Source: Marchantia polymorpha subsp. ruderalis (Eukaryota > Streptophyta > Marchantiopsida > Marchantiales > Marchantiaceae). Taken from it: DNA of 64,000 bases. The notes under the pieces are model-generated. The model saw only the letters and a list, made by a program, of their open reading frames with translations. It was not told where the DNA came from and did no database searches. Position numbers and translations under genes: made by a program. This document shows, in pieces, positions 1-62,871 of this stretch (positions within the stretch are counted from its first letter, which is position 1; every line of letters starts with the position of its first letter). Where the stretch lies: positions 4,258,501 to 4,322,500 of the forward strand of contig AP031352.1 of assembly GCA_037833965.1 (NCBI GenBank). The letters run 5' to 3'.

Positions 1-914
1 CGGAACCTCATCCTCCTGTGCACAGGCGTTCGCCTGTGCGCAGGCGAATTCCGTCCGCGGCGCTGCGCTGGCGCGGAAGGCGTTGACCGTGGTCAGCCGT
101 CTCCGTCCAGTCTGTCCGTTCCTTGTCTCTCCGTCGGCGCTTCCGCCGCCGCAACTCCGTCCGTCCAAGAGCGCATCCACCCGTGCCGTCCGCATGGTCC
201 GTACCGATTGGATTACTCTGGCGGCTCTTCCGACGTACACGGCGCTGCGCTTGCGCGGAAGGCGCCGTACACTTTCTACCTCACAAGGCGCATTTCTAGG
301 GCCCAAGGCGGATTTTCCGCCGACGCCGAAACGCCTGTGCACAGGCGTTTGCCTGTGCGTAGGCGGACTTCGCGCCTTCCCTAACCCTACTTCGCCTGTG
401 CACAGGCGAACGCCTTCGTCCGCGCATAGGACAAAACTTGACTTCCCCTTCCGCGTAGGCGGAATTCGCGCCGGTGGCGAACTCCTTCCGCCGTAGGCGA
501 CCGCCTCCGTTTCTTCCAGTAGCGATAACTCCCTAAGTCCTCGTCCGTTCCAAGCGTTCTTGGGCTCGTTGGAATCAGCGCGTCGAGCTCTTTCCAACGG
601 GATCCTAACTTGGTCAAGGCGCCCGAGGGTTGACCTAATTACGGGGGTTTCCCTACAGCCGCGGACGCAACCTCCGAAGGCGGGTTTTGCGCCTTGCGCC
701 GTAGAGATCCTAACTGCGGAGCTCGCAGGGAGGGTGGTGCCTGTCCTTACTGCGGCACCCCAAATCCCAGATTCTACAAGATCCCTCGAGAATCCCCGCG
801 ATCTTCCGGATTCACTCTGTTTTGATGTACCGAAGGCTATTTACAATGCTGCCAGGGTACAGTTTTCCAAAAATATTTTAATTTCCTCAAAATTGCCAAA
901 AGTGGGGTACCACA
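1..914 (-). mobile_element. Partial LTR of an LTR retrotransposon, cut by the window edge
   Basis: GC-rich DNA with many GGCG/CCTTCGGCGG and CCTGTGCACAGG-type words. On the minus strand it begins TGTGGTACCCCAC at 914 and matches in order the first part of the solo LTR at 15979-18827, which begins TGTGGTAACCCAC. Shared blocks include the stretch at about 240-400 (minus) against 16690-16780, and the region around 560-620. To the right, gene-cluster sequence homologous to the 3' flank of gene Z resumes at about 915. Only the terminal part is in the window. It is a fossil copy of the same family as the solo LTR; the superfamily cannot be assigned without internal sequence. ORFs here are incidental. 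Confidence 0.75.
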
Positions 915-1700
915 GGGTTTCTTATCTGGAATCACAGGGGTTACATTACGCAGTTTATAGGAGAGCAACTTTTGAAAATAAATTGGACTAAGTCTGCTGA
1001 AAGAAGATCAGATGCATTGATAAAATGTTTCCTTTTTCAGCTAAAAAAATAATATCTTGCTAGATAACTGATATGAACGTACAGTTATATGTTCACGTTA
1101 CTTTACATTATAACGCAAGCCAATTTTGGAGATTGGCTACCTTCTCACTATTTTCTGTTTTTAGATGACAACTGAAACAACGACAAACTTCTGCGTAAAT
1201 TTTTGAAATGTTTGAGCACCAAGTCGGCACTGACATCCAGCGAAAGCCAACCAACGATCAATTGTTGAGCACTCAACAGAATCTAACGTCCTTTTCTTCG
1301 TTGCTATGTTCCAAAAGACAACAACCGAATAGCTTTCAAGCATAGGAATTTCACATGCTGGAACAAAATTTGAACTGGATAATGTCAGCCTATTTGGAAA
1401 TGTTCATGTCATTCATGAATCTCATGAGCTGTGCAAGGACTTGCTCCCTCGCCATCGACCTGTATTGCTCACGCTAACTTTTGTAGTCAATAGCATGGAC
1501 TGAAGAGAAGAACAACAAGTTTTAGCCACTGATAGAAACTGATTAAAACCTTTGAAGATAAAACTCCAGTTAAATAGTAATCTGAAAAAATACAGCATGC
1601 TCTTTCCAGTGATAAGGATAGTCTTCAACTATCAAGTTCTACAAATGTATCATATTCCAGCTCCTGTCAAGGCTCTTTGACAAAAACACTTCTAGTCATT
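915..1700 (-). other. 3' flank of Z1 with a conserved short open frame
   Basis: This stretch follows the Z1 stop codon on the minus strand and has homologues downstream of Z2, Z3 and Z4. It holds an open frame at 1161-1343 (minus) with the core VVVFWNIATKK and a CQCRLGAQTFQKF segment. Related frames lie at 37900-38151, about 23220-23350 and about 56690-56830. The copies differ mostly at amino-acid-changing sites and two carry stops, so this is more likely transcribed 3' flank or a decayed exon than a separate gene. Compared with Z2 and Z4, about 0.9 kb is missing here, as it is at Z3. Confidence 0.4.
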
Positions 1701-1821
1701 CCGGGAGTTAGTCGTCACAGGGACGCCGTGCGATGCGGGCGTCCGGCCGATCGGCGTTCCAGGGCCGGGATTAGGTCTTTTGTCGATTTCTTCGTCTTTC
1801 CGAATTTCGTCGCTTGAACCT
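1701..1821. mobile_element. 121-bp GC-rich insertion beside the Z1 stop codon
   Basis: A 121-bp GC-rich block is present here and after Z3 (37477-37597), but absent after Z2 and Z4. At Z3 it is flanked by a perfect 8-bp direct repeat AATGGCTA; here one flank copy carries one difference. The insertion point overlaps the last base of the stop codon, so Z1 and Z3 end in TAA where Z2 and Z4 end in TAG. No clear terminal inverted repeat is seen. An 8-bp duplication would suit a hAT-like non-autonomous element, but the class is not established. Confidence 0.5.
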
Positions 1822-2441
1822 TAGCCATTACGCCATGCACTTATCGCATCCATGAAGGAGAACCTTTTCCAAAACCAGAATATTCTTTCCTCTTTCACCT
1901 CCTTGGTCACTGTAATTTGATAACCATCCATTGGTGAAGGTCTTCGACAATCAAGATATGGAATATTGATTGCTGATGCATCATTATCCACACTTTCTTG
2001 TGCACTTTCTTGTGCAACCAAAGATTGATCATTATCTATACAAGTAGCACCTGCAAGCTGACAATGTCTGCTTTCAAATGTTGGAAGCCAATCTTGGCTT
2101 TCGTAAGATTGAGGTTGAGAAGTCATATCATCAATGGGCACAATATCTGACATATCCATTACATCCTCACCATAAGAAAGATTTGAATCAGAGTTATCCA
2201 CCCAGTGCCTAAAGCTGGTGTTACCAACATCTGCACGGGAATAAATTTCAGGATAGTACCCTGGTTCTCCGTCATCAATCTTCATGAACTCGGTCGATGT
2301 AGAAGAAAACTCTGCATCTGGTAAGTTCCTCGAAGCAACTCCCCGAGATCTTTTATTTGGTTTAAGTCGTTTGAGAAACTGTTTGGTCTTCATGAAGAGG
2401 TGACCACCAAGGTTTTTCTTGGACGAACCCTTGATAACCAT
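1821..2441 (-). CDS. Unrecognised Z-family protein, copy Z1 (206 aa)
   Basis: A single-exon open frame of 206 residues that I do not recognise. It has a basic N-terminus (KKNLGGHLFMKTKQFLKRL), an acidic, Ser- and Asp-rich middle, and an aromatic C-terminus (FWFWKRFSFMDAISAWRNG). No signal peptide or membrane segment is seen. Full-length copies lie at 36866-37477 and 54886-55503, and a broken one at about 21334-22024. Length differences among the open copies are whole codons, for example three codons (RGV) absent from Z3, and both ends are strongly conserved; this argues for a real protein under selection. The start is the ATG after a CACAGGTTACA context that could also be a splice acceptor, so an upstream non-coding exon is possible. 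It lies in the inverted half-module, facing the opposite way from the other copies. Confidence 0.65.
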   Translation of the reverse strand: MVIKGSSKKNLGGHLFMKTKQFLKRLKPNKRSRGVASRNLPDAEFSSTSTEFMKIDDGEPGYYPEIYSRADVGNTSFRHWVDNSDSNLSYGEDVMDMSDIVPIDDMTSQPQSYESQDWLPTFESRHCQLAGATCIDNDQSLVAQESAQESVDNDASAINIPYLDCRRPSPMDGYQITVTKEVKEERIFWFWKRFSFMDAISAWRNG

Positions 2442-5531: not shown

Positions 5532-6781
5532 TTGTCACGAATGACTGAAATCACGTCTACACAGATGAGAGGAACCGAACGCTCCAAGCAACATCTCAAT
5601 AGTGACAAGAATTCAAGGATTTGCAAAGGCAATCAGCTAAGTCTCGGATGGTGCGTCCAAAAAATTCGATACGTAATCTTCAATTTTTATGGTTCTAGCC
5701 ACTTGGCAGGAGATGTGTTCACAGCTGAAGCTATGCGGCTTGCAGATTAATGATAATCCGGCGTTATCAGGGTTAGCTATATATATGACAGAAGTGATAA
5801 AATGATAGTCCGAATGTCAGAGAGAGAGGCTTGGCTCCACTGCAAGAATCGGAAGAACTATACTACAGATGAAGGTCTCGTCTCGTTGCACGGGTCTGAC
5901 AGAATGGGCATTCAGGCTGTACACTGAACGGAGTCGATTCCCTCCCAAACATTCGCATAACAAATTCTTATCTATGCCAGGAATCCCAGCTTCTCTCCAT
6001 TCTTCTTGGCCAGTCTAATCAAGCCTTGCCTTTGATTGGGATCGGCCCCGATAAATTTAGAAATCTCAGTTATGACCTGCACAACCGAATCGGGGCGTTG
6101 AGTACACTTCTCATGAACCAGCCTACTACAATTCAGGGTGCTTGTGTGGGCATAGGATACTGAAACATAGTTGAAATATCTGTTGTGAATGTCTGTGGCG
6201 TTTCAAAAAGCTCGAAGTGAAATCTCTGAATTGTTTTTAGGTTAAAGATTCGGAAACGAATGTTTGAGCCGCAAAATCAACAGATCTGGCTCACTGACAA
6301 CTGAAGTTGAAGTTAAAGATGAGGTAAAGATGAAGGTTGCTGCTACAGATGTATACTGACAGCAAGGAATCAATTTTCCCACCAGCAATGTCAAGACGCT
6401 AACTACCGCTGTCTCAAATTTCTTCCCGATCGATCTGTACCGGAAACAGGTTGCTTCCCATCTAGAAGCTGAAGACATGCCTACCCACGAGCTTCACTAG
6501 ATTTAAAGCTTAAAATTCAAACCATAAGAGATTTCACATCCGAGAAGAATATCTCTACAACGATCTTGCAATCAATACCGGCCCTTCAACACACAATCGG
6601 GCATACTCACATGTCACTGTACTTCCACACAAAATTGCTCAAAATTCTCAAAATTTCAGTTTATTCAATCCTTCGAAATGAGCAAGGACCCCAATGGTCA
6701 GCATAATCTGCTTTTCGCATCTGGAGAAACATCATTTTTTGCAGAACAAGTTTTCTCTATGCATAATGGACTTGGTATGTA
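5532..6781 (+). pseudogene. Unrecognised region W, copy 1: series of conserved open frames
   Basis: A run of protein-like segments on the strand opposite to LOR2. They are MSRMTEITSTQMRG...FTAEAMRLAD (5532-5750), a segment with CQESQLLS and ALPLIGIGPDKF (about 5935-6165), one with FPTSNVKTL and SHLEAEDMPTHELH (about 6300-6500), and a C-terminal part SGETSFFAEQVFSM ending in GLGM at 6781. The same segments recur in copies at 32254-33504 and 50421-51717. In-frame stops, such as a TGA after ATDVY in all three copies, mean no copy is intact as one exon. It ends tail to tail with LOR2, about 60 bp apart. I do not recognise the family; it could be an old gene in decay or a multi-exon gene whose splice sites I have not resolved. 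Confidence 0.3.
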
Positions 6782-11610: not shown

Positions 11611-12812
11611 GAAGAAGAGAGGACCTGACGTGTGGCGTGTGATGGACACTGGTTAGATAATCTGAAATGCAATAACTGTCGATCATGTCGTGTAGATAGC
11701 TACTGCACATGTTGCTCTCGACCGGATTTGATCTCAACAGTGATGAGTATTGCTGTCTACCAGTGCCTTCTGCCTAGTACTTACATATCTGGAGGGAAAC
11801 TAGGCCATCACAGTACATCAGCGGTTGCTGATTGTAAGGTGGAGTGGAGTGGAGTTGAATGGAGTGGTGTGAAGAAGCAACGATGTGTCATTGAATTTTG
11901 ATGTACTTAATCCAATTTTCATTTCAAGCGCAAATTCATTTCCTTTATCAAGTCTTTCGGGTTTTTTCTTCATTGTGTTGAATCTGCCGAAAGGATGAGC
12001 AACCTATTTCAATACTGAGCCATACGTCCAGAGAGGAAATGGGCTCTACTGTACTCTGCAGTGTCTTCGCCCTGCTCACAGCCTTTCCGTTATTTTGAAG
12101 TAAGATCCAAATTCTGGATTTGTTAGGTTTCGAAACAGTTAAGAATCAGCTCACCTTTCTCAAAAATATCGTCATGCATATATATAGGAGATCTAAAAGG
12201 CAACGATTATTGATGCTTCAAAGAATTGAATGGGGAAAACCTATAACAAGTCCAGCAGGCAGAAGGATATTTGTATGCAAAATTGTTCATTGGGCCCAAG
12301 TTGAGTGAGCCGGATTTTGACTTTCTTTCTCAGACCAACTGCGATTTCGGCAAATTGGAACTTCGCTATAGGACGAAAACTAAGCATGTGTATCAACAAA
12401 GGCTAAGATATATTAGGTTAGCTTAGACACTTGCAGCATGATTTCCTCTAAGTAAATACTACAGCTTCCCGCTGATGTATATGAAGGCAATGAAGCCCCA
12501 GCTTCAAGAGAAGGCTCGAACAGAGGGTTTAAACAGATAGCTTGTATACATTTAGTGTATGTGTTTTTCTGAAAGGAAATTGCAAGAAGCGTACGTGGTT
12601 TTCTCAAGGAAAGCTGTGAGGCAGCATTACTTCAGAACTTGGCAATCAAGTAAGACATGGAGGTCTAGGTTTCCAGAGAAATTGTGTCATCCTATACTCT
12701 GTATACTTGAGAGACAGTCAGGCGGATATATGGAAGATGTTTGGAGAGGAATCCCGTTGTATCTCCCCTAGGCAAAAGATGCGAATCAAACAGACGTGCA
12801 GCAGAGACTAGT
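11611..12812. other. LOR1 3' flank and spacer to the tRNA gene
   Basis: No gene is seen. At 11838-11868 there is a GGAGT-type short tandem repeat. A block at about 12375-12500, with GTATCAACA, GGCTAAGATAT and the CTGATGTATATGAAGGC word, repeats at about 13524-13655. It also resembles the DNA just beyond the 3' end of GLP5 (about 42150-42190) and GLP7 (about 61320-61350). It is thus a stray copy of GLP 3' flank. Confidence 0.45.
11838..11868. repeat. GGAGT short tandem repeat
   Basis: About five imperfect GGAGT/GAATGGAGT units in the 3' flank of LOR1; a likely polymorphic microsatellite. Confidence 0.7.
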
Positions 12813-12884
12813 TCCGTTGCCGGGACTTGAACCCGGGTCGCTCGGGTGAGAGCCGAGTATCCTAACCAACTAGACTACAACGGA
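12813..12884 (-). tRNA. tRNA-Glu (CUC anticodon)
   Basis: The 72-nt reverse strand begins TCCGTTGTAGTCTAGTTGG and ends with the matching acceptor CAACGGA, giving a 7-bp acceptor stem. The D-arm holds the A-box-like TAGTCTAGTTGG. The anticodon stem CTCGG/CCGAG encloses the loop CTCTCAC (anticodon CUC). The T-arm holds the B box GGTTCAAGTCC between CCGGG stems. There is no intron and no encoded CCA, as expected for a nuclear gene. It is complete and looks functional, transcribed by RNA polymerase III from internal promoters, and is the only tRNA I see. Confidence 0.95.
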
Positions 12885-16189: not shown

Positions 16190-17360
16190 TCATAACTTTC
16201 TCAATTCGTAACGCCTTGAGTTGCTTTGGGTCTTGTTGCAAAGAGCTCGCGACGCTCGTTCTAACGAGACCAAGAACTTGTGAAACGGATGAGAGCTCAC
16301 TGAGTTATAAGTGTCGGAAGTTAGTGATGGGGGGGCCTTCGGCGGTAGAGCGACTTTGGCGGTACGCCTTCGGCGGAAGAACCGCCGGAAGATGCGCCTT
16401 GGGCGGTAGACGCCTTCGGTCAACGCCTTCGGGTCAACGCCTTCGGCGATACGGGAAAGTGCATTCGGCGGAAGAGTGAAACCCTCATAACTTTCTCAAT
16501 GCGCAACGCCTCGACTTGGTTAGGGTCTCGTTGGAAAGAGCTCGACGCGCTGATTCTAACGAGCCCAAGAACGCCACGAACGGAGGAGAATTCCGGGAGT
16601 CATGAAGGTCGCAAGATACTCAGCTTTCCGCCTTCGCACAGGCGAAGAAAGTTTTGTCCTATGCGCGGACGAAGGAAGTTCGCCTGTGCACAGGCGCTTC
16701 GGCGTCGGCGGGAAATCCGCCTTGGGCCCTAGAAATGCGCCTTGTGAGGTAGAAAGTGTACGGCGCCTTCTGCGCCAGGTCATCGCCTCGGACGGCCAGG
16801 TCAGTGCCGCGGACGGCCAGGACAACGCCGCGGACGGACAAGTCAGCGCAGCGGACGGACAGCTCAGCGCCGCAGACAGCCAGGTCATCGCCGCGGACGG
16901 ACTGTGGATAGGCGAAGGCCTTCGGCGGAAGGGTAAAATTGACATAGTGTTTTCAATTCTTAATGGTTTGCGGTGGTTAGGGTCTCGTTGGAAAGAGCTC
17001 GCGACGCTCGTTCCATCGAGCCCAAGAACGCCTGGGACGTATGGGAATTTAGGGAGTTAGGACAATCGGAAGATACGTAGACGTTCTCCTCCGGCCCTAG
17101 ATGTTCGCCTTCGGGGTTACGCTTCCGGGAATTCCGCCTTCGGAGGTAGGGAGATCGACTTTTGTCCGATGCGCGGACGGACGACTTCGACGGTTGCAGG
17201 CCTTCGGCGGAAGAGTAAAACAGTGATAACTTTCTCAATTCTTATCCGTTTGACTTGGTTAGGGGCTCGTTGGAAAGAGCACAACACGCTCGTTCCAACG
17301 AGCCCAAGAACGTTGCAAACGAAGCAGGGATCCGTGAGTTATGGGCGTCGGGGTGACTGT
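16190..17360 (+). repeat. Degenerate GC-rich tandem repeats inside the solo LTR
   Basis: At least four units start near 16190, 16485, 16955 and 17225. Each contains an ACTTTCTCAATTC word, a GGTCTCGTTGGAAAGAGCTC-type word, and CGTTC(C/T)AACGAGCCCAAGAACG. Between them lie many CGCCTTCGGCGG words and, at 16785-16905, a run of short GCGGACGGCCAGGTCA-like units. The tract is much more GC-rich than its surroundings. The many ORFs on both strands reflect composition, not genes. Confidence 0.75.
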
Positions 17361-18607
17361 TAGAGATTGACAAGGTGTGGAAGTGCGTCTTTGGCGGTTG
17401 GACGCATTCGGCGGTGCGCGGAAGGAGATTTCCTCCGGCGAGGATCGGGTGGTCATGAATGTAGAATGTTCAGGTGTGGCAGTGGCGGCCTGCGAGTAGG
17501 CGGCTTGCGTGTAGGACGCGTGGAACCCACAGTCCTCGGATTTTGGAGAAGGAATTTTGGCCTAGGTTCAGAGATCTTGCGGGGCCCATATCTTTGCGAT
17601 GGACGGTCGGATGGATCTGAAATTTTGTGGGGCCGTTGATCTCGGCCGGCCACGCATGCCTGCAAGTTTTCAGCCTCAGATCTTGGATGGTAAGGCGCTG
17701 GCGGCTCTGTACAGTAGGCTTAGGATTAAGATTTAGGGTTAGATTTAGGTTGTAAGCTAGAGGGGAAGGCAGCCGCCGACTCCTCAGGTGTAGGATCTGT
17801 TGCGGCTCGCACCATGGCATTGCAGTGTAGTGTTATTTAGGACTTAGAAGGTATAAAATAGTTCCAGGCGTTTTGCCTGGGGTTCTTTCCCATCAGAAGT
17901 GCAGATCAGGAACCCATTTCCTTTGCGTGTTTGTGTCCTTGAGTTCCGTCACCACGCACGAGGAGTTACAACTTAGCGTTCCGCATTTTGTAGCTGAAGG
18001 CCTTCGGCCGAATGTTCAGAGCTAGTACATTGGTTAGAGACTTGAGTAGTTCGGAACTGCACCTGCGGGTGACTGCCGATGCTCAGAGCCAGTGACTAGT
18101 TAGATACTTGAACAGTTTCGACCCTACACCTTCGAGTGTTTCTTTCTGATTGTACTCCTTTGGGATTTTTCCCCTGAATGCCAAAGTGAAGTTTTGCTAC
18201 TTCGTGTAAGTCTTGGTTGTAAATTCAGGCTACGCTGCAGCAGGTGCCTTGAGGGTAACCCCTGTAGTATTTCTGGGAATGACAAGTGCCTGAGAATTCA
18301 AACTCTTCAATAGACTGTTGTTGTGTTACTGGAATGTTTCACAGTGAGTCCTTCAGTGCGGACCTGTGTTCTCTGCGCGTTTTGTGAGTTGAGAGTGTTG
18401 TTCACCGCGTAGGAGTGACTTCGATCCGAAGTAGGCAGTCCAAACCGGGTTTCCTACACTAGCAGCAAGCTAGTGGAAGTGTTGTAAAAGCCGGAGTTGG
18501 AAGTCACTGCCCGCAGCTTTGCCGAGTGTGCTCGCGAGAAACTTTCCCCCCTGAAATCTTGAGTAGAGGTCCTAACGGATCTCTGGGTTGTGTTTCTGTA
18601 GTTTCAG

Positions 18608-21289: not shown

Positions 21290-21369
21290 TTCCAAGGTTT
21301 TTCTTGGAAGTATCCTTGAAAACACAGGTTACAATGTTCTCAAGGATACTTCCAAGAAAAACCTTGGAA
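21290..21369. repeat. Perfect 30-bp inverted repeat over the Z2 start
   Basis: Arms 21290-21319 and 21340-21369 are exact reverse complements, with a 20-nt loop holding the ancestral Z2 ATG. The right arm is normal Z coding sequence (codons for LKDTSKKNLG). The left arm is absent at Z1, Z3 and Z4, where TACTGCACAGGTTACAATGG is continuous. The left arm is therefore a snap-back copy of the first Z codons. Confidence 0.9.
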
Positions 21370-22024
21370 CCAACCTCTACATGAAAACCAGCCAGTTTCT
21401 CAAAAGATTTAATACGAATAGAAGATCTCGAGGAATTATTTCAAGCAACTTATCAGATGCAGGTCAGAGAGAATCCTAGTTCTCACTTTGGCCATATACT
21501 CAGATGTATGCCCGTGCAGATGTTGGTAACATCATCAATCTCCTGCATGAACTGGATGGATAAACAAGAAAAGTCTGCATCTGATAAGTTTCTTGAAGCA
21601 ATTCCTCGAGATCTTTTATTTATATCACGAGCTTTGGACACTGGGTTGATAATTCCGATTCAAATCTTATGGTGAGGAGGCAATGGGTACTTCAGAAATT
21701 GTGCCAATTGATGATATGACTTCTCAATCTCAATCTCACGAAAGCCAAGATTGGCTTCTAACATTTGAAACCATACATTATCAGTTTGAATGTGCTACTT
21801 ATATAGAATATGATCAATCTTTGGTTGCACAAGAAAAGTGCACAAGATGGTATTGTGAAAATTATGCATCAGCAATCAATATACCTTATCTGGCTTGTAG
21901 AAGACTTTCACAAACAGATGCTTATCAACTGACTATGATGAACTAGTTGAAGGACAATAGGAAAATCTGGTTCTGGAAGAGGTTCACATTCATTGATGCC
22001 TTAAGTGCATGGCGGAATGGCTAG
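21334..22024 (+). pseudogene. Z-family copy Z2, degraded
   Basis: Aligned with Z3 and Z4, this copy has lost a base right after the ATG (ATGTTCTC instead of ATGGTTCTC) and has several later shifts and stops. Recognisable pieces lie in different frames: SKKNLGTNLYMKTSQFLKRF (about 21345-21420), DDMTSQSQSHESQDWLLTFE (about 21710-21770), NIPYLACRR (about 21880) and the C-terminal SAWRNG motif ending at 22024. An upstream ATG made by the snap-back arm opens a chimeric frame (21276-21479), which stops early. It is clearly non-functional as a Z protein. Like Z4, it lacks the 121-bp insertion at the stop codon. Confidence 0.85.
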
Positions 22025-24420
22025 AAGTGTTTTTGTCAAAGATTCTTGACAGGAACTGGAACATGATGCATTTCTAGAACTTGATAGTTGAAGACTATCC
22101 TTATCACTGGAAAGCGCATGCTACATTTTTTCAGATTACTATTTAACCAGAGTTTTATCTTCCTAGAGAGTAAGGCGATGAGATTCTGACAAACGTTTTT
22201 ACATCTTTAGTCTGCGAAGAATGTAGTGATCAGGTCTCTCTTTGATTTTCTAACCTCATTTGTAAGTATCATAGGAAGTACATTGTAAGCATTCGAGATG
22301 AAGCTCGAGGAGTTTCGGGTACAATGCCATGAGCACCCTGGAGCACAAAGTCTACATTTACAATGCAAGACTTATAAGACACTTTTTTTAAGATAATTAT
22401 AATGAGCATCTGCTGGACTCTTTCTATCACATATCACCTATTGAAGTATGCTGAGTCTTCACCTCGTGAAGAGTATAAGCGTGAGCTGATCCTTAACTTT
22501 TCAGAGACAGAGGTCACTCCTAGATAAAAGATCACTTTTGTTGTGTGTGCTTGTCACCATTCAGCAAAACAAAATGTGTATGTGGATGCAGGTCTGCAGA
22601 ATGCAAGCAATGTTTTGCTCTCTAGTTGTACCCATATATCCAGCTAATGAAAACCTTGTCAAGTTTGGATGAAATTTACATCACTTTTAAGAAGCATAGA
22701 GAAGATGCAATTTACGTGTTCCTTGAGTCAGCCTCAAATCTACCATCAAGTTACAAGTATGACTATCATCTGCGTGATCTGAACCTTCTTATGGCAGTAT
22801 TTAGTAATAACAGTCTTCATCCTGATGTTTTCTGGATGTACTTGCTGATCATATTCTTCTAGTCGGGTGATGAGTTATTAATATCTTATGATCTTGACGT
22901 CAACTTGTGGTTGATATGATCCTGGAAATATAATGTAATGTCTATTTATTCCATTCATCTGATTTGATTATTTTTCTAGTAAAAAATCGCTGTAACCGTA
23001 ATGAGGCCTCTGTATGCCAAAATGTTTCTATCAGTGGCTAAAACTTGTTGTTCTTCTCTTCAGTCCATGCTATTGACTACGTAAGTTAGTGTGAGCAATA
23101 CAGGTCGATGGCGAGGGAGCAAGTTCCTTCACTGCTCATGAGATTCATGAAAGACAGAAACATTTCGATATAGGATGTCATTATCCAGTTCAAATTTTGT
23201 TCCAGCATATGAGATTCCTATGCTTGAAAGCTATTCGGTTGTTGTCTTTTGGAACATAGCAACGAAGAAAGGGACGTTGGATTCTGTTGAATGCTCAACA
23301 ACTGATCGTTGGTTGACTTTCGCTGGATGTCAGTGCCGACTTGGTGCTTAAACAGTTCAAAACTTTACTCAGAAGTTTTTGTTGTTTCAGTTGTCATCTA
23401 AAAACAGAAGCTAGTGAGAAGGTTGCCACTCTCCAAAATTGGCTTGCATTATAACGTGACGTAGCGTAAACATGTAGATGTATGTTAAAATCAAATATCT
23501 AGCTTGAGTTTAGTTTTTTAGCTCATAATAGAAACATTTTATCAATACATCTGATCTTCATTCAGCAGGATTAGTTCATTTATTTTCAAATGTTGCCTAC
23601 TATAAACTGCGTAATGTAACCCGGTGATTCCAGATAAAAAATCCTTACTTCGAGATAGTTTTTACGAACTTGGTTGTTATCAACAAGTCACATTTTAAGA
23701 ACGTGTTTCGGCTTTTCGGTAGTCGATTCCTTTTTTGTCATCTTCAAGATGCTGTTCCGAAATCATTATCCATCTTGAGAGGCTCTTTGTCGAGCTTAGA
23801 TACATGCCTATTACAAGCAGCAATATTGGAAATGATATTCCGCATAATTTTAAAGATAACTACCTATCCTAAATGAACTGTATGGAATGTTTTCTTCAAC
23901 CTCAGAGCATAAATTGTAACCTCAGAGCATAATAATGAGTATAAATTGTAAATCGTAAAGTATGTAATGAACTTCAAAGTCGAATTGATGTCAAATTTGA
24001 GCAAAAATTCATCTTCTGCTTTCAGTTGATAGTCTAGAGAAAGTATATACCGTCATGCACTAAGTCCCTTGCTTTCAAGCAGATAGTATGCTATATGGTG
24101 TACGCCTTCTTGACCTTCTATCCTCACCAGATCTGCTTTACTGGGATATTGTGCCTCACAAGAGCTGGATGGCAAGTTGTGTGTCAATAAGAACCGCATT
24201 AGTTCACAAGAGGGAGCACAGAAATGCATGAATCATGAAAGGAAAAATTCTAGACCCTTGAGTCATGCTGGCAAGCCTCTTGGATACATCATGCAATACT
24301 CATTATCTAGATTTTTTGGTCCTCTATGCTTGATAAAAAATTTCTTTTTGGCCTACTTCAACCTCTTAATCTGAAATATGTACACCAAGTATGTTATAAA
24401 ATGAAAATAAAGCTAATTTT
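22025..24420. other. 3' flank of Z2 and module end
   Basis: Homologous to the flank of Z4 (55504-57360), and in part to Z3 (37606-39450). It includes about 0.9 kb (about 22160-23020) that is absent after Z1 and Z3. That part holds a frame with SASNLPSSYKYDYHLRDLNL (22626-22862), also present at about 56180-56330. The YSVVVFWNIATKKGTLD frame follows at about 23225, with a stop. These may be decayed exons of an ancestral longer gene or UTR. No intact gene is seen. Confidence 0.4.
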
Positions 24421-24585: not shown

Positions 24586-25249
24586 ACAACAAAGGTAGAT
24601 CGCATCTTTTAGGCACGTGATACGTCATACGCGTGTTCATCTTGATGCCAGGCATCTGATCATGCAGGCTCGTCTCAACCGCTCTGAAGAGTGAGCACCG
24701 GAGTGAATGCTGGCGCTTATGCGCACAAACTATTGAAAGGTTGACAGTCGTGACAAACCTATGTCCGCAACACAAATCCTCAGTGATGCCGAGCAGGTCT
24801 TCGTGTACTGAGATTCGGACAGGAACTGGTGAGCGGTTCGATTCGACCGTTCGCTCACGAGCTTCATGAAGCTTATGTCTCCACAGCGCCATCCAAATGA
24901 GCTTCGGGTCAATTCCATTGCAGTACGGGGCCCGCTGAAGTGGACTCCAAAGTCTTAACGAGTCCCAGAATATGGGCTTCACGCCCCGCGGCTATGGAGC
25001 GTAAGACGAACGTGAGACCACCTAGCGAGCGGGGTGAAGATAGTTGACATTGTCCTTGCCCATTTGAGTGATGCATAAGTTAGCGCGATTCACAAACCTT
25101 CAATCCTGGGGGGAGGGGGGTGGGGCAATGTCATGTGCTCACGGAAAGCGTCGCTAACTCTTAAGCTGAAAGCCTTCTTCAGTTCAACGAGGAGGTTCCT
25201 CGGAGGTGATCGTAGACATAATTTTGGTGTTGACTGACTAGAACGGGAA
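24586..25249. other. 5' flank of the F-box gene
   Basis: Single-copy DNA, richer in GC than the cluster. An open frame at 24509-24982 (minus) crosses the module boundary and is not supported. The promoter and 5' UTR of the F-box gene should lie here; an in-frame TGA 15 bases before the ATG fixes the start of that frame. Confidence 0.4.
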
Positions 25250-25705
25250 ATGGAGGAAAGAAGCAAAGAGTCTTCTGCATTGGTGCTTCCGAAGGCCCTT
25301 CCGAAGACCACTATGGAGTGGGACAGCGATGAGGAGGCGAGCTCGTCGGAGCTAGCTTTCATGGGGAGGTCGTTATCGGAGGACCTTCTGCTGACTGTGC
25401 TGAGCAAGCTCCCGCTCGAGAGCCTGAGGAGGTTCCGTTGCGTGTGCAGAAAGTGGAACGATCTGCTCATGTCTTGGGAATTCTCTCGCTCGATTTGCCA
25501 CAAACCCGGGAAGCTAATTCCGCTGTATCCGGGTGATGGAGAGCTCAATCTTTACGACACTAGCAATCGTTGCTGGTTGCAGCGCGACCTCAAATTTGGA
25601 GATGATCAGGGTTTGTTAATCGAAGATCAGGGATATGAGCTGGTCGCATCGGGTGGGGGCCTGTTGGCCTTTCTTGCCAAGCCGCAGCTCGACGCCAACT
25701 GGCGA

Positions 25706-25813
25706 GAGCGATTTCCGACATTCATCGTTTCCAACCCTTTGACACGACAGTCCCACAGAGAGCGATTCCCAACATTCATCGTCTCCAACCCTTTGACACG
25801 ACAGTACCACAGA
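25706..25813 (+). repeat. 54-bp tandem duplication inside the F-box gene
   Basis: Units 25706-25759 and 25760-25813 both encode ERFPTFIVSNPLTRQxHR, with only a few base differences. The duplication is in frame and adds 18 residues to the propeller-like region. Confidence 0.9.
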
Positions 25814-26075
25814 TTGCCGACTTCAGTCGTCCATGGATCGCGTTCCCTCAACATCCCTGAGGTAGGACATCTGTTGTGTGGAATAGACGTAGATCTGGAA
25901 ACAGGGTATTACACTTTCTTATTTTTGGATACTCGTTCCATTGAGGGCGAAGGGGAAACTTACGTCTACGACTCCAAATTGTGCTCATGGCGGATCTCTC
26001 ACTTGGTCCACCTGCCCTGGCTCCCCTGGCGAAACTTGCCAAGGATGCTCGAACTCTGCAAGACGATAAGTATAA

Positions 26076-26117
26076 ACTCTGAAATCGTTCAAAAAGCTCT
26101 GAAATCGTTCAAAAAGC
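26076..26117 (+). repeat. 20-bp tandem duplication inside the F-box gene
   Basis: CTCTGAAATCGTTCAAAAAG occurs twice head to tail. The unit is not a multiple of three, so it shifts the F-box frame near its end. Confidence 0.85.
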
Positions 26118-26179
26118 GGAGCAACCCGACAAATACGAGATCATTCTATGCCCTGTCTTGTGTGGCTCTACTCAAAAGG

Positions 26180-27147
26180 CCAGCAGCATCCTGAAGGAAA
26201 AGAAAATTGTTACTAACTGTTGATAGGAATGTCTCATTCTACTATCGTACATCATGTAGTATATATGGGTCTAGAGTGCTACATCGAGCGTAATCCTATT
26301 TTTGTATTTCATTACTCTCTTAAAGTCACAAAAGCAATTAAAGATACTTTGAAAAGTTAACGTTTATAATATAGAAGAAGACTTACCAAAGTGCCCGGAT
26401 TTTGGCTATTCAGAGCCGAAAGGTAGAAAGCTGTTTCTGTACCAACATTCAACTCAAAATGTAACAAACCACGAGGAAAGACGATGAGATCTCCCGGGTT
26501 CAGAATGTGGATGTGAGCTTGTCCTGCAGACAAATGGTCCAGAAGTAAAATTTCAGGGAAGGGATTCACATATACATCTAAGACCTAACCGAATCCAATG
26601 ATGATTTGCATCAAGTTCGCAAACACCAGAACCTTTAGTGTCGACAAAACCAGCCTGAAGTGGACCACCACTGATCAAGGAAAGAAGCTCTGTAGCACGG
26701 GGGTGTGTGTGGGGTACGTTCTCTCCACACGGTACCATCTTGAACTGAACAACGGTCAGACCTCAGACCTGCAAATGCCATAAAGATAAAAGATGAAACT
26801 CTATATAGTCAATCAAAGAGTTTCCCTTCGATATAAGACATGTCTTTTGTGCATCTGATTTGAAACCCAGAAAAAAGAAATGTCTTGCTGGATTCGACGT
26901 ACGTAAGGCCAGGGAAATTTCCGATGTCGAGGGCTGCTCGAACGCCTCCAGATCCAATAGATACATCTCCATTGACAAAGATGTTGCGGAAGACTGGAGT
27001 AGTTGCGTTTGCAGAAAAGTCGACGGGAGGATCGGGATCGGCAGCTTCGACTCTCTGTACCAGCACCAGGCATGTGCTGTAAATGAAAAGAAGCATAATT
27101 ATGCCATGCACCATCTTGGACGTGCAATCAACCTTCGAGAAGTTCAT
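26180..27147 (-). pseudogene. Germin-like gene GLP3, lacks exon 4 and is frameshifted
   Basis: Minus-strand exons 26903-27147, 26633-26768 and 26387-26523 match GLP5. Exon 2 is 136 bp rather than 137: one base is missing right after its acceptor, in the run before the GLTVVQF codons. Only the first 10 or so bases of exon 4 remain (to about 26180); there the sequence switches to the F-box gene. The C-terminal 50 or so residues are lost. Exon 1 still encodes a signal peptide and DPDPPVDFSANATTPVFRN, and box 2 (GDLIVFPRGLLHFELN) is present in exon 3. Confidence 0.88.
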
Positions 27148-32253: not shown

Positions 32254-33504
32254 CTACATACCAGGTCCAATATGCATAGAGAAAACTTGTTTTGGAGAAA
32301 CTGATATTTCTCCAGATGCGAAAAGCAGATAAAGCTGACCATTGGGGTCTTTGCTCATTTCGAAGGATTGAATAACTTGATTTTTTGAGAAGTTTGAGCA
32401 ATTTTGTGTGGAAGTACAGGCTCCTGTGAGTATGCCCGATTGTGTGTTGTAGGGCAATATTGATTGTAAGCTCGTTGTAGAGATATTCATCTCGGATGTG
32501 AAATCTCTTGTGGATTGAATTTTAAGCTTTAAATCTAGTGAAGCTCGTGGGTAGGCATGTCTTCAGCTTCTAGATGGGAAGCAACCTGGTCCCGGTACAG
32601 ATCGATCGGGAAGAAATTTTGAGACAGCGGTAGTCAGCGTCTTGACATTGCTGGTGGGAAAATTGATTCCTTGCTGTCAGTATACATCTGTAGCAACAAC
32701 CTTCATCTTTACCTCAACTTCAACTTCAGTTGTCAGTGACCCAGATCTGTTCATTTTGCGGCTCAAACATTCGTTTCCGAATCTTTAATTAAAAACCAAT
32801 TCAGAGATTTCGAATCGTCTTCGAGCTTTTTGAAACGCCACTGACATTCACAACAGATATTTAAACTATGTTTCAGTATCCTATGCCCACACAAGCACCC
32901 TGAATTGTAGTAGGCTGGTTCATAAGAAGTGTACTCAACGCCCCGATTCGGATGTGCAGGTCATAAGTGAGATTTCCAAATTTATCGGGGTCGATGCCAA
33001 TCAAAGGCAAGGCTTGATCAGACAGGCGAAGAAGAAGGGAGAGAAGCTGTGATTCCTGGCATAGATAATAATATGTTATGCGAATGTTTAGGAGGGAATC
33101 GACTCCGTTCAATGTAGAGACTGAATGCCCATTATGTCAGACCCGTGCAACGAGACGAGACCTTCATCTGTAGTATGGTTCTTCCGATTCTTGCAGTGGA
33201 GCCAAGCCTCTCTCTCTGACATTAGGACTGTTATTTTATCACTTCTGTCATATATATAGCTAAGCCTGATAACGCCGGATTATCATTAATCTGCAAGCCG
33301 CATAGCTTCAGCTGTGAACACATCTCCTGCCAACTGGCTGGGACCACAGAAATTGAAGATTACGACTCGAATTTTTATGACGCACCATCCGAGACTTAGC
33401 TGATTGCCTTTGCACATCCTTGATTTCTTGTCACTATTGAGATGTTTCTTGGAGCGTTCGGTTCCTCTCATCTGTGTAGACGTGATTTCAGTCATTCGTG
33501 ACAA
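32254..33504 (-). pseudogene. Unrecognised region W, copy 2
   Basis: Same segment order as W1, on the minus strand: MSRMTEITSTQMRGTERSKK (33286-33504), NGVDSLLNIRITYYYLCQES...ALPLIGIDPDKF (32873-33112), the SHLEAEDMPTHELH segment (about 32530-32780) and SFEMSKDPNGQ...QVFSMHIGPGM (32254-32490). Several stops and a 30-bp loss relative to W3 separate the pieces. It lies tail to tail with LOR3, with about 60 bp between the ends. Function unknown. Confidence 0.3.
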
Positions 33505-36865: not shown

Positions 36866-37477
36866 ATGGTTCTCAAGGATTCTTCAAAGAAAAACCTTGG
36901 TGGCCATCTGTACATGAAGACCAGACAGTTTCTCAAAGGACTGAAAACAAATAAACGATCTGCTTCAAGGAATTTACCAGATGCAGAGTTTTCTTCTACA
37001 TCGACCGAGTTCATGAAGATTGATGAGGGAGAACCAGGGTACTATCCTGAAATTTCTTCCTGTGCAGATGTTGGTAACACCAGCTTTAGGCACTGGGTGG
37101 ATAACTCTGATTCAAATCTTTCTCATGGTGAGGATGGAATGGAAACGTCAGATATTGTGCCAATTGATGATATGACTTCTCAACCTCAATCTTACGAAAG
37201 CCAAGATTGGCTTCCAACATTTGAAAGCAGACATTATCAGCTTGCAGGTGCTACTTGTATAGATAATGATCAATCTTTGGTTGCACAAGAAAGTGCAGAA
37301 GAAAGTGTGGATTATGATGCATCAGCAATCAATATTCCTTATCTTGATTGCCGAAGACCTTCACAAATGGATGGTTATCGAATTACTGTGACCAAGGAGG
37401 TGAAGGAGGAAAGAATATTCTGGTTTTGGAAGAGGTTCTCCTTCATGGATGCGATAAGTGCATGGCGTAATGGCTAA
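36866..37477 (+). CDS. Unrecognised Z-family protein, copy Z3 (203 aa)
   Basis: A 203-residue open frame, close to Z1. It differs from Z1 by scattered substitutions and a 9-bp in-frame deletion after NKRS. The basic N-terminal block SKKNLGGHLYMKTRQFLKGL, the central DVGNTSFRHWVDNSDSNLS and DDMTSQPQSYESQDWLPTFE, and the C-terminus VKEERIFWFWKRFSFMDA through SAWRNG are all kept. No known domain, signal peptide or transmembrane segment is seen. The charge pattern (basic head, acidic middle) would suit a regulatory or scaffold protein, but that is a guess. The stop codon's last base is supplied by the adjacent 121-bp insertion, as at Z1; shared insertion and shared 3' deletion make Z1 and Z3 closest relatives. 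Confidence 0.65.
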   Translation: MVLKDSSKKNLGGHLYMKTRQFLKGLKTNKRSASRNLPDAEFSSTSTEFMKIDEGEPGYYPEISSCADVGNTSFRHWVDNSDSNLSHGEDGMETSDIVPIDDMTSQPQSYESQDWLPTFESRHYQLAGATCIDNDQSLVAQESAEESVDYDASAINIPYLDCRRPSQMDGYRITVTKEVKEERIFWFWKRFSFMDAISAWRNG

Positions 37478-37597
37478 GGTTCAAGCGATGAAATTCGGAA
37501 AGACGAAGAAATCGACAAAATACCTAATCCCGGCCCTGGAACGCCGATCGGCCGGACGCCCGCATCGCACGGCGTCCCTGTGTCGACTAACTCCCGG
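37477..37597. mobile_element. 121-bp insertion after Z3 with an 8-bp duplication
   Basis: Flanked by AATGGCTA at 37469-37476 and 37598-37605. It is the same sequence as at 1701-1821, and the corresponding sites after Z2 and Z4 are empty. The interior is GC-rich, with CCGATCGGCCGGACGCCCGC. No terminal inverted repeats are seen. Confidence 0.6.
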
Positions 37598-37605
37598 AAT
37601 GGCTA

Positions 37606-39454
37606 GAAGAGTTTTTGTGAAAGATTCTTGACAGGAGCTGGAATATGATGCATTGGTAGAACTTGATAGTTGAAGACTATCCTTATCACTGGAAAGAACA
37701 TGCTGTATTTTTTCAGATTACTTTTTAACTGGAGTTTTATCTTCAAAGGTTTCTATCAGTGGCTAAAACTTGTTGTTCTTCTCTTCAGTCCATGCTATTG
37801 ACTACAAAAGTTAGCGTGAGCAATACAGGTCGATGACGAGGGAGCAAGTCCCTGCACAGCTGATGAGATTCATGAAGGACATAAACATTTCGATATAGGA
37901 TGACATTATCCAGTTCAAATTTTGTTCCAGCATGTGAAATTCCTATGCTTGAAAGCTATTCGGTTGTTGTCTTTGGGAACATAGCAACAAAGAAAGGGAC
38001 GTTAGATTCTGTTGAATGCTCAACAACTGATCATTGGTTGGCTTTCGCTGGATGTCAGTGCCGACTTGGTGCTCAAACATTTCAAAAATTTACGCAGAAG
38101 TTTGTCGTTGTTTCAGTTGTCATCTACAAACAGAAAGCAGTGAGAAGGTAGCCACTCTCCAAAATTGGCTTGCGTTATAATGTTACGTAACGTGAACATA
38201 TAACTGTACGTTCATATCAGTTATCTAGCAAGATAATTGTTTTTAGCTGCAAAAGGAAACATTTTATTAATGCATCTGATCTTCATTCAGCAGACTTAGT
38301 CCAATTTATTTTCAAATGTTGCTCAACTATAAACTGCGTAATGTAACCCCTGTGATTCCAGATAAGAAACCTTTACTTCGAGATTGTTTTTACGAGCTTG
38401 GTTGTTACACCAAGTCACATTTTAAGAACGTGTTTCAGCTTGGTTGCTCTGCGGAAAGATTCCGGACTGGTATTAACCTGCCCGTGAATGTCTTTTCTAA
38501 ACTGAGCTCTCGCTTAGTGCAGAATGATATGCAAGGAGATTCCTGATGTTTGGCAATTTGCAAACCTAGGTAATCGAATCCTTTTTCGTCTTCTTCAAGA
38601 TGCTGTTCCGAATTCACTATCGATCTTGAGAGGCTCTAGGCCGAGCTTGGGTACATGCCTGTGACAAGCAGCATCATTGGAGATGATATACCTCATACTT
38701 TGATATTGCTTTCAGTTTTGAAGATAACTACCTATTCCTTAATGAACTGTATTGGAGATGATATTCCTCATACTTTGTTATTGCTTTAAGTTTTGAAGAT
38801 AACTACCTATTCCTAAATGAACTGTATAGAATTTTTCTTCAACCTCAAAGCATGAATTGGGTCCTCAAGTGTCGTAAGTTGTAGCTACAGCTGCCAGCTG
38901 AAACCTAGAGTAAGGAAGAAGAAGAGGACATCAAGACCAGAAAAAAATTAATTCAAAATAGTTGATTTTGCCAGTATATCGTAAAGTAGGAGTATGTATT
39001 GAACTTCAAAGTCGAATTGATGTCAAACTTGAACAAAAGTTTATCTTCTGCATTCAGTTGATAGTCTAGATAAATTATATACCGTCATGCACTAAGTCCC
39101 TTTCTTTCATGCATATAATATGCTATACGGTGTACGCCTTATTGACCTTCTATCCTCACCAGATCTGCTTCACTGGAATATTGTGCCACACAAAAGCTGG
39201 TTGGCAAGTTCTGTGTGTCAATAAGACCGCATTAGTTCACAAGAGGCAGCACAGAAATGTATGAATGATGTAAGGAAAATATCATGACCCTTGAGTCATG
39301 CTGGCAAGCCTCTTGGGTACATCATGTAATACTCATTACCTAGATTTTTTTGTTCCGCTTTGCTTGATAAACGTTTTTTTGGCCTACTTCGACCTCTTAA
39401 TGTAATATATATACACCAAGTATGTTATAAAATGAAATGAAAGCTTATTTTCAT
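37606..39454. other. 3' flank of Z3 and module end
   Basis: Holds the conserved YSVVVFGNIATKKGTLD frame, open here from 37900 to 38151, and further module-end DNA homologous to 23550-24420. Relative to Z2 and Z4 about 0.9 kb is missing just after GGAGTTTTATCTTC. A 75-bp tandem duplication lies at 38678-38827. The frame may be a remnant exon. No complete gene is recognised. Confidence 0.4.
38678..38827. repeat. 75-bp tandem duplication
   Basis: Units 38678-38752 and 38753-38827 (TGGAGATGATAT...CTTAATGAACTGTAT) differ at a few bases. The equivalent DNA near 23830 has one unit. Confidence 0.85.
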
Positions 39455-54885: not shown

Positions 54886-55503
54886 ATGGTTCTCAAGGGT
54901 TCTTCCAAGACCAACCTTGGTGGCAAACTTTACATGAAGACCAAGCAGTTTCTCAAAGGACTTAAAGCAAATAAAAAATCTCGAGGAAAGTCTTCAAGGA
55001 ACTTATCAGATGGAGAGTCTTGTTGTACATCGACTGGGTTCATGCAGAATATTGATGGAGAACTGGGATCCTATCCTCAAATGTATGACCGTGGAGATGT
55101 GGGTAACACCAGCTTTAGGCACTGGGTTCATAACTCTGATCCAAATCTCTCTTATGGTGAGGATACAATGGATACGTCAGAGGTCGTGCTAGTTGATGAT
55201 ATGACTTCTCAACCTCAGTCTTACGAAAGCCAAGATTGGCTTCTAACATTTGAAAGCAGATATGATAAGTTTGAAGCTGCTACTTCCATAGATTATGATC
55301 AAATGATAGAAGAAAGTGCAGAAGATGGTATTGTGAAAAATGATCCATTAGCAATCAATATACCTTATCTTGATTGCAGAAGACCACCAGAAACGGATTC
55401 TTATCAAATGACCGTGAACAATGAGGTTAAGGAGGAGAGAAGATTCTGGTTCTGGAAAAGTTTCTCGTTCATGGATGCGTTCAGTGCATGGCGGAATGGC
55501 TAG
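54886..55503 (+). CDS. Unrecognised Z-family protein, copy Z4 (205 aa)
   Basis: A 205-residue open frame and the most divergent of the three full-length copies. The N-terminus SKTNLGGKLYMKTKQFLKGL, the central DVGNTSFRHWVHNSDPNLS and DDMTSQPQSYESQDWLLTFE, and the C-terminus VKEERRFWFWKSFSFMDAFSAWRNG-type end are kept. Residues around 125-160 vary and contain in-frame length differences (DQMIEESAEDG against DQSLVAQESA). The absence of any frame-breaking indel despite this divergence supports coding function. No domain is recognised. It ends in TAG without the 121-bp insertion and keeps the 0.9-kb downstream segment, as Z2 does, so it represents the older arrangement. Confidence 0.7.
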   Translation: MVLKGSSKTNLGGKLYMKTKQFLKGLKANKKSRGKSSRNLSDGESCCTSTGFMQNIDGELGSYPQMYDRGDVGNTSFRHWVHNSDPNLSYGEDTMDTSEVVLVDDMTSQPQSYESQDWLLTFESRYDKFEAATSIDYDQMIEESAEDGIVKNDPLAINIPYLDCRRPPETDSYQMTVNNEVKEERRFWFWKSFSFMDAFSAWRNG

Positions 55504-57365
55504 AAGTGATTTTGTCAAAAATTGACAGGAGCTGGAAAGCATTTCTAGAACTTGATAGTTAAATACTATCGTTATCACCGGAAAGCGCATGGTGAATTTT
55601 TTCACATTACTTTTTAACTGGAGTTTTATCTTCCTAGAGAGCAAGGTGATGAGCTTCCTACATAGGTTTTTACATCTATAGTCTGCGAAGAATATACGGA
55701 TCAGGTATCTCTTTAATTTTTAAACATGATTTGTAGGTATAATAGGAAGTACATTGTAAGCATTCGAGATGAAGCTAGAGGGATTTCAGGTACAATGCCA
55801 TGAGCACTCGAACACATAGTCTACATTTACAATGCAAGACTCTTTGTTCAAGAGTTATAATTATAATCAGCAAGTGCTGGACTCGTTCTATCACAATTCA
55901 CCTATTGAAATATGCTGAGTCTTCACCTGGTGAAGAGTTTAGCTTGAGCTGATCCTTGACTTTTCAGAGACAGATGCCACTACTAGATAAGAAATCACTT
56001 TTGTTGTGTGTGTTTGTCACCTTTCAGCAAAACAACATGTGCATGTGGATGCAGGTCTGCAGAATGCAAGCAGTTTTTTGCTCTCTAGTTGTACCCAGAT
56101 ATCCAGCTAATGAAAACCTTGTCAAGTTTGGATAAAATTTACATATCACTTTCAAGAAGCATAGAGAATATGAAATTACGTGTTTCTTTGAGTCAGCCTC
56201 AAATCTACCATCGAGTTACAAATATGACTATCATCTGCGTGATTTGAACCTTCTTATGGCAGTATTGAGGAATAACAGTCTTCATCATGATGTACTCTGG
56301 ATTTACTTGCTGGTCATGTTCTTCTAGTCTGGTGATGAGTTATCTATATCTTATGATTTTGACCTCAAATTGTGGTTGATATGATCATGATCCTGGATAC
56401 GTAATGTAATGTCTTTTTATTCCATTCATCTGATTTGATTTATTTTCTAGTAAAAAGACACTGTAACCGTAATGAGGCCTTGATATGCAAAAAGGTTTCT
56501 ATCAGTGGCTAAGACTTGTTGTTCTTCTCTTCAGTCCATGCTATTGACTACAAAACTTAGCGTGAGCAATACAGGTCGATGGCGAGGGAGCAAGTCCCTG
56601 CACAGCTGATGAGATTCATGAATGTCAGAAACATTTCGATATAGGATGACATTAACCAGTTCAATTTTGTTCGAGCATATGAAATTCCTATACTGTCAAG
56701 CTATTCGGTAGTTGTCTTTTGGAACATAGCAACTAAGAAAGGGACGTTAGATTCTGTTGAATGCTCAACAACTGATCGTTGGTTGACTTTCTCTGGATGT
56801 CAGTGCCGACTTGGAACTAAAACATTTCAAAAATTTACGCAGAAGTTTTCGTTGTTTCAGTTGTCATCTTAAAACAGAAACTTGTGAGAAGGTAGCCACT
56901 CTCCAAAATTGGCTTGCGTTAAAATGTTACGTAACGTAAACATAAACATATAACTGTCTGTTCAAATCAATTATCTAGCAAGAGTTAAGTTTTTTAGCTC
57001 AAAAAGGAAACATTTTCTCAATGCATCTGAACTTCATTCAGCAGACTTAGTTCAATTTATTTTCAAATGTTGCTCTACTATAAACTGCGTAATGTTACCC
57101 CGGTGATTCCAGATAATATCTCCTTACCTCGAGATAGTTTTTACGAGCTTGGTTGTTATCAACAAGTCCGATTTTAAGAACGTGTTTCAGCATTACTTGA
57201 ATCATGTAAGGAAAAATTCTTGACCCTTGAGTCATGCTGACAAGCCTCTAAGATACATCATGTAATACTCATTTTGTAAATTTTTTGGTCCTCTTGGCCT
57301 ACTTCAAACTCTTAATCTAAATATATACACCAAGTATGTTATATAATGAAAATAAAGCTAATTTT
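55504..57365. other. 3' flank of Z4 and module end
   Basis: Homologous to the Z2 flank, with remnant frames holding SASNLPSSYKYDYHLRDLNL (about 56190-56260) and YSVVVFWNIATKKGTLD (about 56695). Near 57190 about 1 kb found in the other two module ends is missing, between GTGTTTCAGC and the TGAATCATGTAAGG block. No intact gene is seen. Confidence 0.4.
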
Positions 57366-57966: not shown

Positions 57967-59138
57967 TCAATCTGAGTGCTTGCCACCATGTTTCTCCTTG
58001 TTCTCATTGTGGATAGCTTCCATGATTGTAACCACGGCAGCGACAAATGCCTGATCAACGTTGGGACTGACAAGGACTCCATAGTTGCTTTTCCCGGTAA
58101 TCATAGAGGTCAGAGAGAAATGCTTCTTGGCAACCTGCAGCAGATACACACATATCATCTTCCAGAGAAATTAGTGAATGGTAAAACTAGTACATCTGAC
58201 ATCACGAGTTAATACATGTTCCATCTCAAGTTGCAATAGAGTTTGAACGAGCAGCCCTTCAAGGGATAATAAGAGTGTCATTTCGCTTCTTACAATTAAA
58301 CTGATGAATTACATACCTCGGCGGCAATTGATGCTCCTTTGAAAATGATTTCATAGTTGCGACGAACAAAGTCACCCTTCACTTGGAAGGCAGGTTCTGA
58401 ATCAGCTTCGAGTTGAATTTCGTATGTCAATTCTGCCGCATCCCTCATGTTTTTGTCCCAAACAGTGAACAGTTCTGTCCAACTCTCTCCTTTGTACACT
58501 TGATAAGTGTCGTGAAGGGAAATTTTCTGTGCATAGAGTAAGATACACATATGAAGAATTTTAATTCTTGTGGTATTCTGTCTAGCTAGTATATGTATGA
58601 ATAAAACGTAGGCAGTGAAGCATAAACCTAAAATTTCCCTACCCACATTTCAAAAGGTTTGTCAGTCACAGAAAGTTGAACTGAAAATTTCAGCCAAATA
58701 AATGTCAAGTCAGAAAAAGAAGATTTCATCTGAATCGGAACGGCCCAATTCGAACGTTCTTTCTGGTTGCATGAGTGCTGACATAAGATTTCTGGCTGGG
58801 ACCACAAACTTGAATCGGAATGGACAAAATTTTCAAACTCTTCCCTCTCAGGAATATCATATCTGCTTTTTGTCTCCACAGCTTAGAAGATGGCCTCCAC
58901 TATATCTTATAGAACTGACCTTTTTGTGAATGCTGACCACAGGGCAGTCACCATCATCGCGCACAACCGTCAGCTCTCGTAGGAAGACCTTCTTCTGATC
59001 CAGCTTGAAAAGGGTGTGACCCTCAGAATCAGTGATGACAAAGTTACCATTGTTGTATTCCAATACCTTCTTGGCAATTGTGAGTTTCATCTCCGAGGGC
59101 GAGCAATACTGGGCATCAACAATGACTGGAAATTCCAT
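57967..59138 (-). CDS. LURP-one-related protein LOR6 (198 aa, 3 exons)
   Basis: Exons 58920-59138, 58317-58526 and 57967-58134 join in phase 0 through GT-AG introns to 198 residues, a normal length for the family. Residues 1-73 hold EFPVIVDAQYCSPSEMKL and NNGNFVITDSEGHTLFKLDQ; 74-143 hold KISLHDTYQVYKGESWTELF, AELTYEIQLEADSE and GDFVRRNYEIIFKGASIAAE; 144-198 hold KKHFSLTSMITGKSNYGVLV and NVDQAFVAAVVTIMEAI, the hydrophobic C-terminal helix, ending KHSD. The fold should be a Tubby-like beta barrel around that helix. Relatives such as Arabidopsis LURP1 act in basal defence; the molecular activity is unknown. It is one of only two intact LOR genes in the window, and LOR5 is its truncated near-identical copy. 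A TATA-like CTATATATTG lies about 70 bp upstream. Confidence 0.9.
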
Positions 59139-59899
59139 TTTTCAAATCTGCAGTAGAGATATCATCAGGGCGTCAAATCTCACTTGTGCGTCTGAAGGAA
59201 AGTAGGCGCAATATATAGAGAACGAGGTGCGTTTACAACTTGAAGTTTGAAAGAATATATTAGTCACATCGAAAAAGTTTAAATCAGAGATCTAGCTTAG
59301 ATCCACTAGCTGAGAGTCCACAAAATTTAATACAAAACAACTAATTCATGAATTTATAGTCGAGAAAATTGCAAGAAGGTGACAATGCGATCTAGAAAAT
59401 GAGAAAGAGACTGCTGACCAAAGTGATCGTCTAGCTATAATTTCAACCTTGGTAACAATAACAAGTATTCCGATTGAGGAAGAGATGTGCTTATGTGACA
59501 ATAAGGAAGACTACAATAGCAAGGCTGCATTCGAGGTTCCTTACAGCGTACAGAGAAGAGAAGAATTATGCAGAAGGTGGCCTGGTAATGTTGCTCTGAT
59601 GACTTGCGAAAATGAGACTATGCCAAATCTGTGCTGAAAATGATCCTACAGCATCGTCTACTTGTACTTGGGAAGGTATGGCGACGTATCCACTTTGAGC
59701 AGTTTGATATTCAGCGAGATCCAACCTTCCATCTTTAGCGCTGTGGAAGTTGATCGTAGGTGAGCTCGAATGGCTGAGATGGTGAAATACAGGTGGAATT
59801 TTCAAGGTCTCGCTGTAATTTCGGAAGATGAGCTAGACTCAGAATATAAAAAGCTTGAGCAGTTTGGAGGCTTGTAACCTTAATTCTTCCTTACATAGG
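59139..59899. other. LOR6 upstream region
   Basis: Contains the putative TATA at 59209-59218 and an interrupted relative of the 8345/48614 frames (about 59560-59805, with PSQVQVDDAVGSFSAQIW). This is the DNA missing from the LOR5 module. No intact gene is seen. Confidence 0.4.
59209..59218 (-). promoter_or_regulatory. Putative TATA box of LOR6
   Basis: Minus strand CTATATATTG, about 70 bp upstream of the ATG. LOR2 and LOR4 have the related CCATAAAAATATTG and CCATTAAAATATTG at the same place. Confidence 0.5.
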
Positions 59900-61595: not shown

Positions 61596-62728
61596 TCAGA
61601 CAGTGGTGGAAATCAACTGGCCAGGAACACACACTCCAGGCTTGGCAGCCTCCAGAGTCGGCGGCTCGTTGTAAGGTCTCTGCGACTTCAGGGCTCCAAC
61701 TGTTGCAATATCTTGATTGAAAGCTATAGCAGCTGCACGCTCAGGTAATTGCAAAACCGCTCCAGCAGCATCCTGAAGGAAAAGAAAATTGTTACTAACT
61801 GTTGATAGGAATGTCTCATTCTATTATTAGATATCATGTAGAATATCTGGGTCTGGAGAGCTACATCGACCTTATTCCTACTATTGTATTGCATTACTCT
61901 CTTCAAATCACATATGAAATTGAAGATACTTCTTAAATTTAAAGTTTATAATATAGAAGGAGACTTACTAAAGTGCCTGGATTTTGGCTATTCAGAGCCG
62001 AAAGGTAGAAAGCTGTTTCTGTACCAACATTCAACTCAAAATGTAACAAACCGCGAGGGAAGACGATGAGATCTCCCGGGTACAGAATGTGGATCTGAGC
62101 TTGTCCTGCAGTCAAATGGTCAAGAAGTAAAATATCAGGGAAGGGATTCACATATCCATCTAAGACATAAGCAAATCCAATGATGATTTGCATCAAGTTG
62201 CAAATATCATAACCTTTGGTGTCGACGAAACCAGCCTGAAGTGGACCACCACTGATCAAGGAAAGGAGCTCTGTAGCACGGGGGTGGGTGTGTGGTACGT
62301 TCTCTCCACACGGTACCATTTTGAACTGAACAACGGTCAGACCCTCAGACCTGCAAATGCCAGAAGGAGAAAAGATGTAACTCTATTTAGTCAGCCAAAG
62401 AATATCCCTTCTATAAGACATGTCTTTTGTGCATCTGGTTCATAACCCAGTAAGAAATAAATGTGTTGTTGGAATCCACGTACGTAAGGCCTGGGAACTT
62501 TCCGATGTCGAGAGCTGCTCGAACGCCTCCAGATCCAATAGATACATCTCCATTGGCAAAGATGTTGCGGAAGACAGGTGTAGTTGCGTTTGCTGAAAAG
62601 TCGACCAGAGGATCGGGATCGGCAGCCTCGACTCTCTGTACCAGCAACAGGCATGTGCTGTAAATGAAAACAAGCATGACCATGCCATGCACCATCTTGG
62701 ACTTGCAATCAACCTTCGAGATGTTCAT
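61596..62728 (-). CDS. Germin-like protein GLP7 (231 aa, 4 exons)
   Basis: Exons 62484-62728, 62214-62350, 61969-62105 and 61596-61772 give 231 residues; an in-frame ATG nine bases further upstream (MAIMNIS) could add three. The signal peptide ends VEA, NATT follows, box 1 is PHTHPRATE (two His and a Glu) and box 2 is GDLIVFPRGLLHFELN (third His), so the manganese site is complete. The C-terminus is EAAKPGVCVPGQLISTTV. Intron 2 is 108 bp, a multiple of three, and free of stops in frame, unlike the intron in other copies, so retaining it would insert 36 residues between the boxes. The exon 3 donor codon is TTA|GTAAGT instead of TTG|GTAAGT. It is expected to be a secreted apoplastic germin-like cupin with unspecified oxidase or dismutase activity. 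Its divergent plus-strand partner would lie beyond the window. Confidence 0.92.
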
Positions 62729-62871
62729 GATCGCCATCTGTATTCAAATTTTAGTGTGAAAATGAGTCCACTCGATAAAGTAGGTTGCCAGGATATGTGA
62801 CTGAAACCGATGCAAGGGAAGGGAGATCTTCCTGATCCTGCTTGAGTGTTGTTTTGAGCTTGCCTTTATAC

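Follow-up and report, generated by a model that had tools for sequence, protein, structure and literature searches.

Z frames in the window and in the genome

The window analysed here, a stretch of 64,000 nucleotides of the Marchantia polymorpha genome (C3:4258501-4322500), holds repeated copies of an open reading frame, termed Z, that very probably belongs to a genuine Marchantia gene kept open by natural selection in four intact copies. Three intact frames lie in the window, one on the reverse strand (1821..2441) and two on the forward strand (36866..37477 and 54886..55503). Throughout the plant's own genome (241,466,482 bases in 9 contigs), Z sequence is found at 21 places on 4 contigs, for the most part as fragments, with 4 copies intact and about 17 broken. 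Published primers for MpFRH1 (25 bases) and MpAPT1 (20 bases), taken from PMC6141232, each have a single, exact match in this genome when 3 and 2 mismatches, respectively, are tolerated; the reversed control patterns gave 0 and 2 matches. The two loci contain the MpFRH1 qPCR pair, the two MpFRH1 transcript primers and the MpAPT1 pair, and a search for a fifth MpFRH1 oligonucleotide, the stem-loop forward primer, gave no match. The sequence is concluded to be that of M. polymorpha or of a very close relative. Sixteen loci beyond the window were fetched for comparison (labelled L045, L049 and so on), and a homology limit near 57199 is common to at least four copies. That limit, the scatter of mostly fragmentary copies and the GC-rich, repeat-like sequence elsewhere in the window speak for Z belonging to a transposable element, a reading that we regard as improbable.

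Selection on the Z frame

The preliminary description of this DNA had proposed comparing nonsynonymous with synonymous substitution rates (dN/dS, omega) between copies, and had claimed that the frame stays open despite divergence. On the tree of intact copies omega is 0.44, and omega = 1 is rejected (p = 1.1e-4), indicating purifying selection; within the constrained islands of the frame the value falls to 0.29, whereas pairs of decayed copies give values near 1. The claim of an open frame is likewise confirmed. Insertions and deletions in the intact copies are exclusively of whole codons, and broken copies of similar divergence carry stops, shifts or both. An alternative, which we regard as improbable, is that the 3′ flank is the constrained part, as a regulatory region or a non-coding RNA, and that Z merely rides along. 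That the frames are open through youth and chance, with no selection acting, is highly improbable given the rejection of omega = 1, the whole-codon length changes, the lesions of comparably diverged copies and the low ratio in the islands.

Two observations were made on the 3′ flank itself. In the region of C3:30186137 (L021, within L049), the end of Z and the start of its 3′ flank are repeated several times at a spacing of ∼305 bp. An open frame of 21–25 codons starting with MQAMFCS, spotted by eye, lies in the 3′ flank of the Z fragments of L045, L047 and L053 (all three).

Relatives and nature of the Z protein

The preliminary description had also held that the Z protein, which a selected frame would encode, belongs to no recognised family, and the database searches support this. 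No Pfam-A family was matched by the three Z proteins at E-values up to 10, nor by any of the seven members of the set A2 (three of them partial, decayed copies); none of four Z members matched NCBIfam at E-values up to 1, and no relative was found among PDB sequences of solved structures. Scans limited to two short peptide patterns each gave 256 pattern matches in bacterial and archaeal genome contigs and 23 in viral contigs, none of which was confirmed by tblastn, and the own-genome search listed nothing apart from the Z family itself. Within the libraries searched, Z is an uncharacterised, selected gene family in a model plant, a finding that is real but ordinary in kind.

The protein shows strong charge segregation and low hydropathy, with three constrained islands separated by looser linkers, and its composition falls marginally on the disordered side. 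Because of the three islands, the lack of a known domain and the charge segregation, the best-supported reading is that the product would be a mostly disordered, motif-bearing protein. In these traits it resembles the intrinsically disordered, motif-based adaptors and regulators of plants, but it differs in lacking any match in the three libraries above, and by composition its disorder is only marginal. With tandemly arrayed orphan (lineage-specific) genes of plants, Z shares small size, absence of a known domain, multiple copies, many pseudogenes and clustering with other families, and no distinctive difference is apparent. If the family is restricted to liverworts, it would add a case of new disordered proteins being retained while most copies die. 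The family can be tested at once, since M. polymorpha is widely used in the laboratory, has a haploid plant body and is easily edited; it also offers a selection signature, pseudogenes that serve as internal controls, and a cluster with defined membership.

PYL-like frames beside old Z fragments

Frames that we take to be PYL-like lie next to old Z fragments in 5 of the 16 fetched loci (L045, L048, L050, L051 and L052), and on the strength of this recurrence the PYL-like frame and Z were probably duplicated together, several times. One is a single long open frame (L045:5460-6140), the remainder being shorter. Of three submitted to Pfam, that of L045 matched Bet_v_1 and Polyketide_cyc2, and those of L051 and L052 gave no match. 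Z itself has no Pfam match to this (Bet v 1/START-like) family, and the window contains no PYL-like match.

Neighbouring genes and other features

Further parts listed with the Z frames lie on the forward strand at 21323..22026, 23020..23714, 37477..37596, 37745..38441 and 56486..57190, and on the reverse strand at 914..1539, 1702..1821 and 58299..59141. The Z copies are clustered with members of two further families, germin-like and LURP-one-related. A reverse-strand neighbour (61942..62743), presumably germin-like, comprises a cupin exon (61942-62382, PF00190) and an upstream exon (62414-62743) that has no Pfam match and is joined to it by position. Such neighbours only suggest a stress context. 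A LURP1 gene of M. polymorpha, Mp4g08800, is reported to be pathogen-responsive (PMC12890914).

A second unrecognised frame, orfX, of up to 121 amino acids, repeats along with the duplicated module, at 50983-51345 (−), 5900-6217 (+) and 32804-33136 (−) in the window and also in L039, L040, L041 and L043; two of the window copies are open on the antisense strand as well. An F-box protein gene at 25238-26194 (+; PF00646, E = 1e-7) carries an internal 54-bp tandem repeat; neither the remainder of the window nor any of the 16 fetched loci holds a second copy. Repeated sequence that is rich in GC and full of overlapping frames, possibly a mobile element, occupies 1-990 and 16190-17640 of the window and L048:6936-9901, and includes a 21-bp tandem unit at 16774-16900. 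A tRNA-Glu (CTC) gene lies at 12811-12884 (−).
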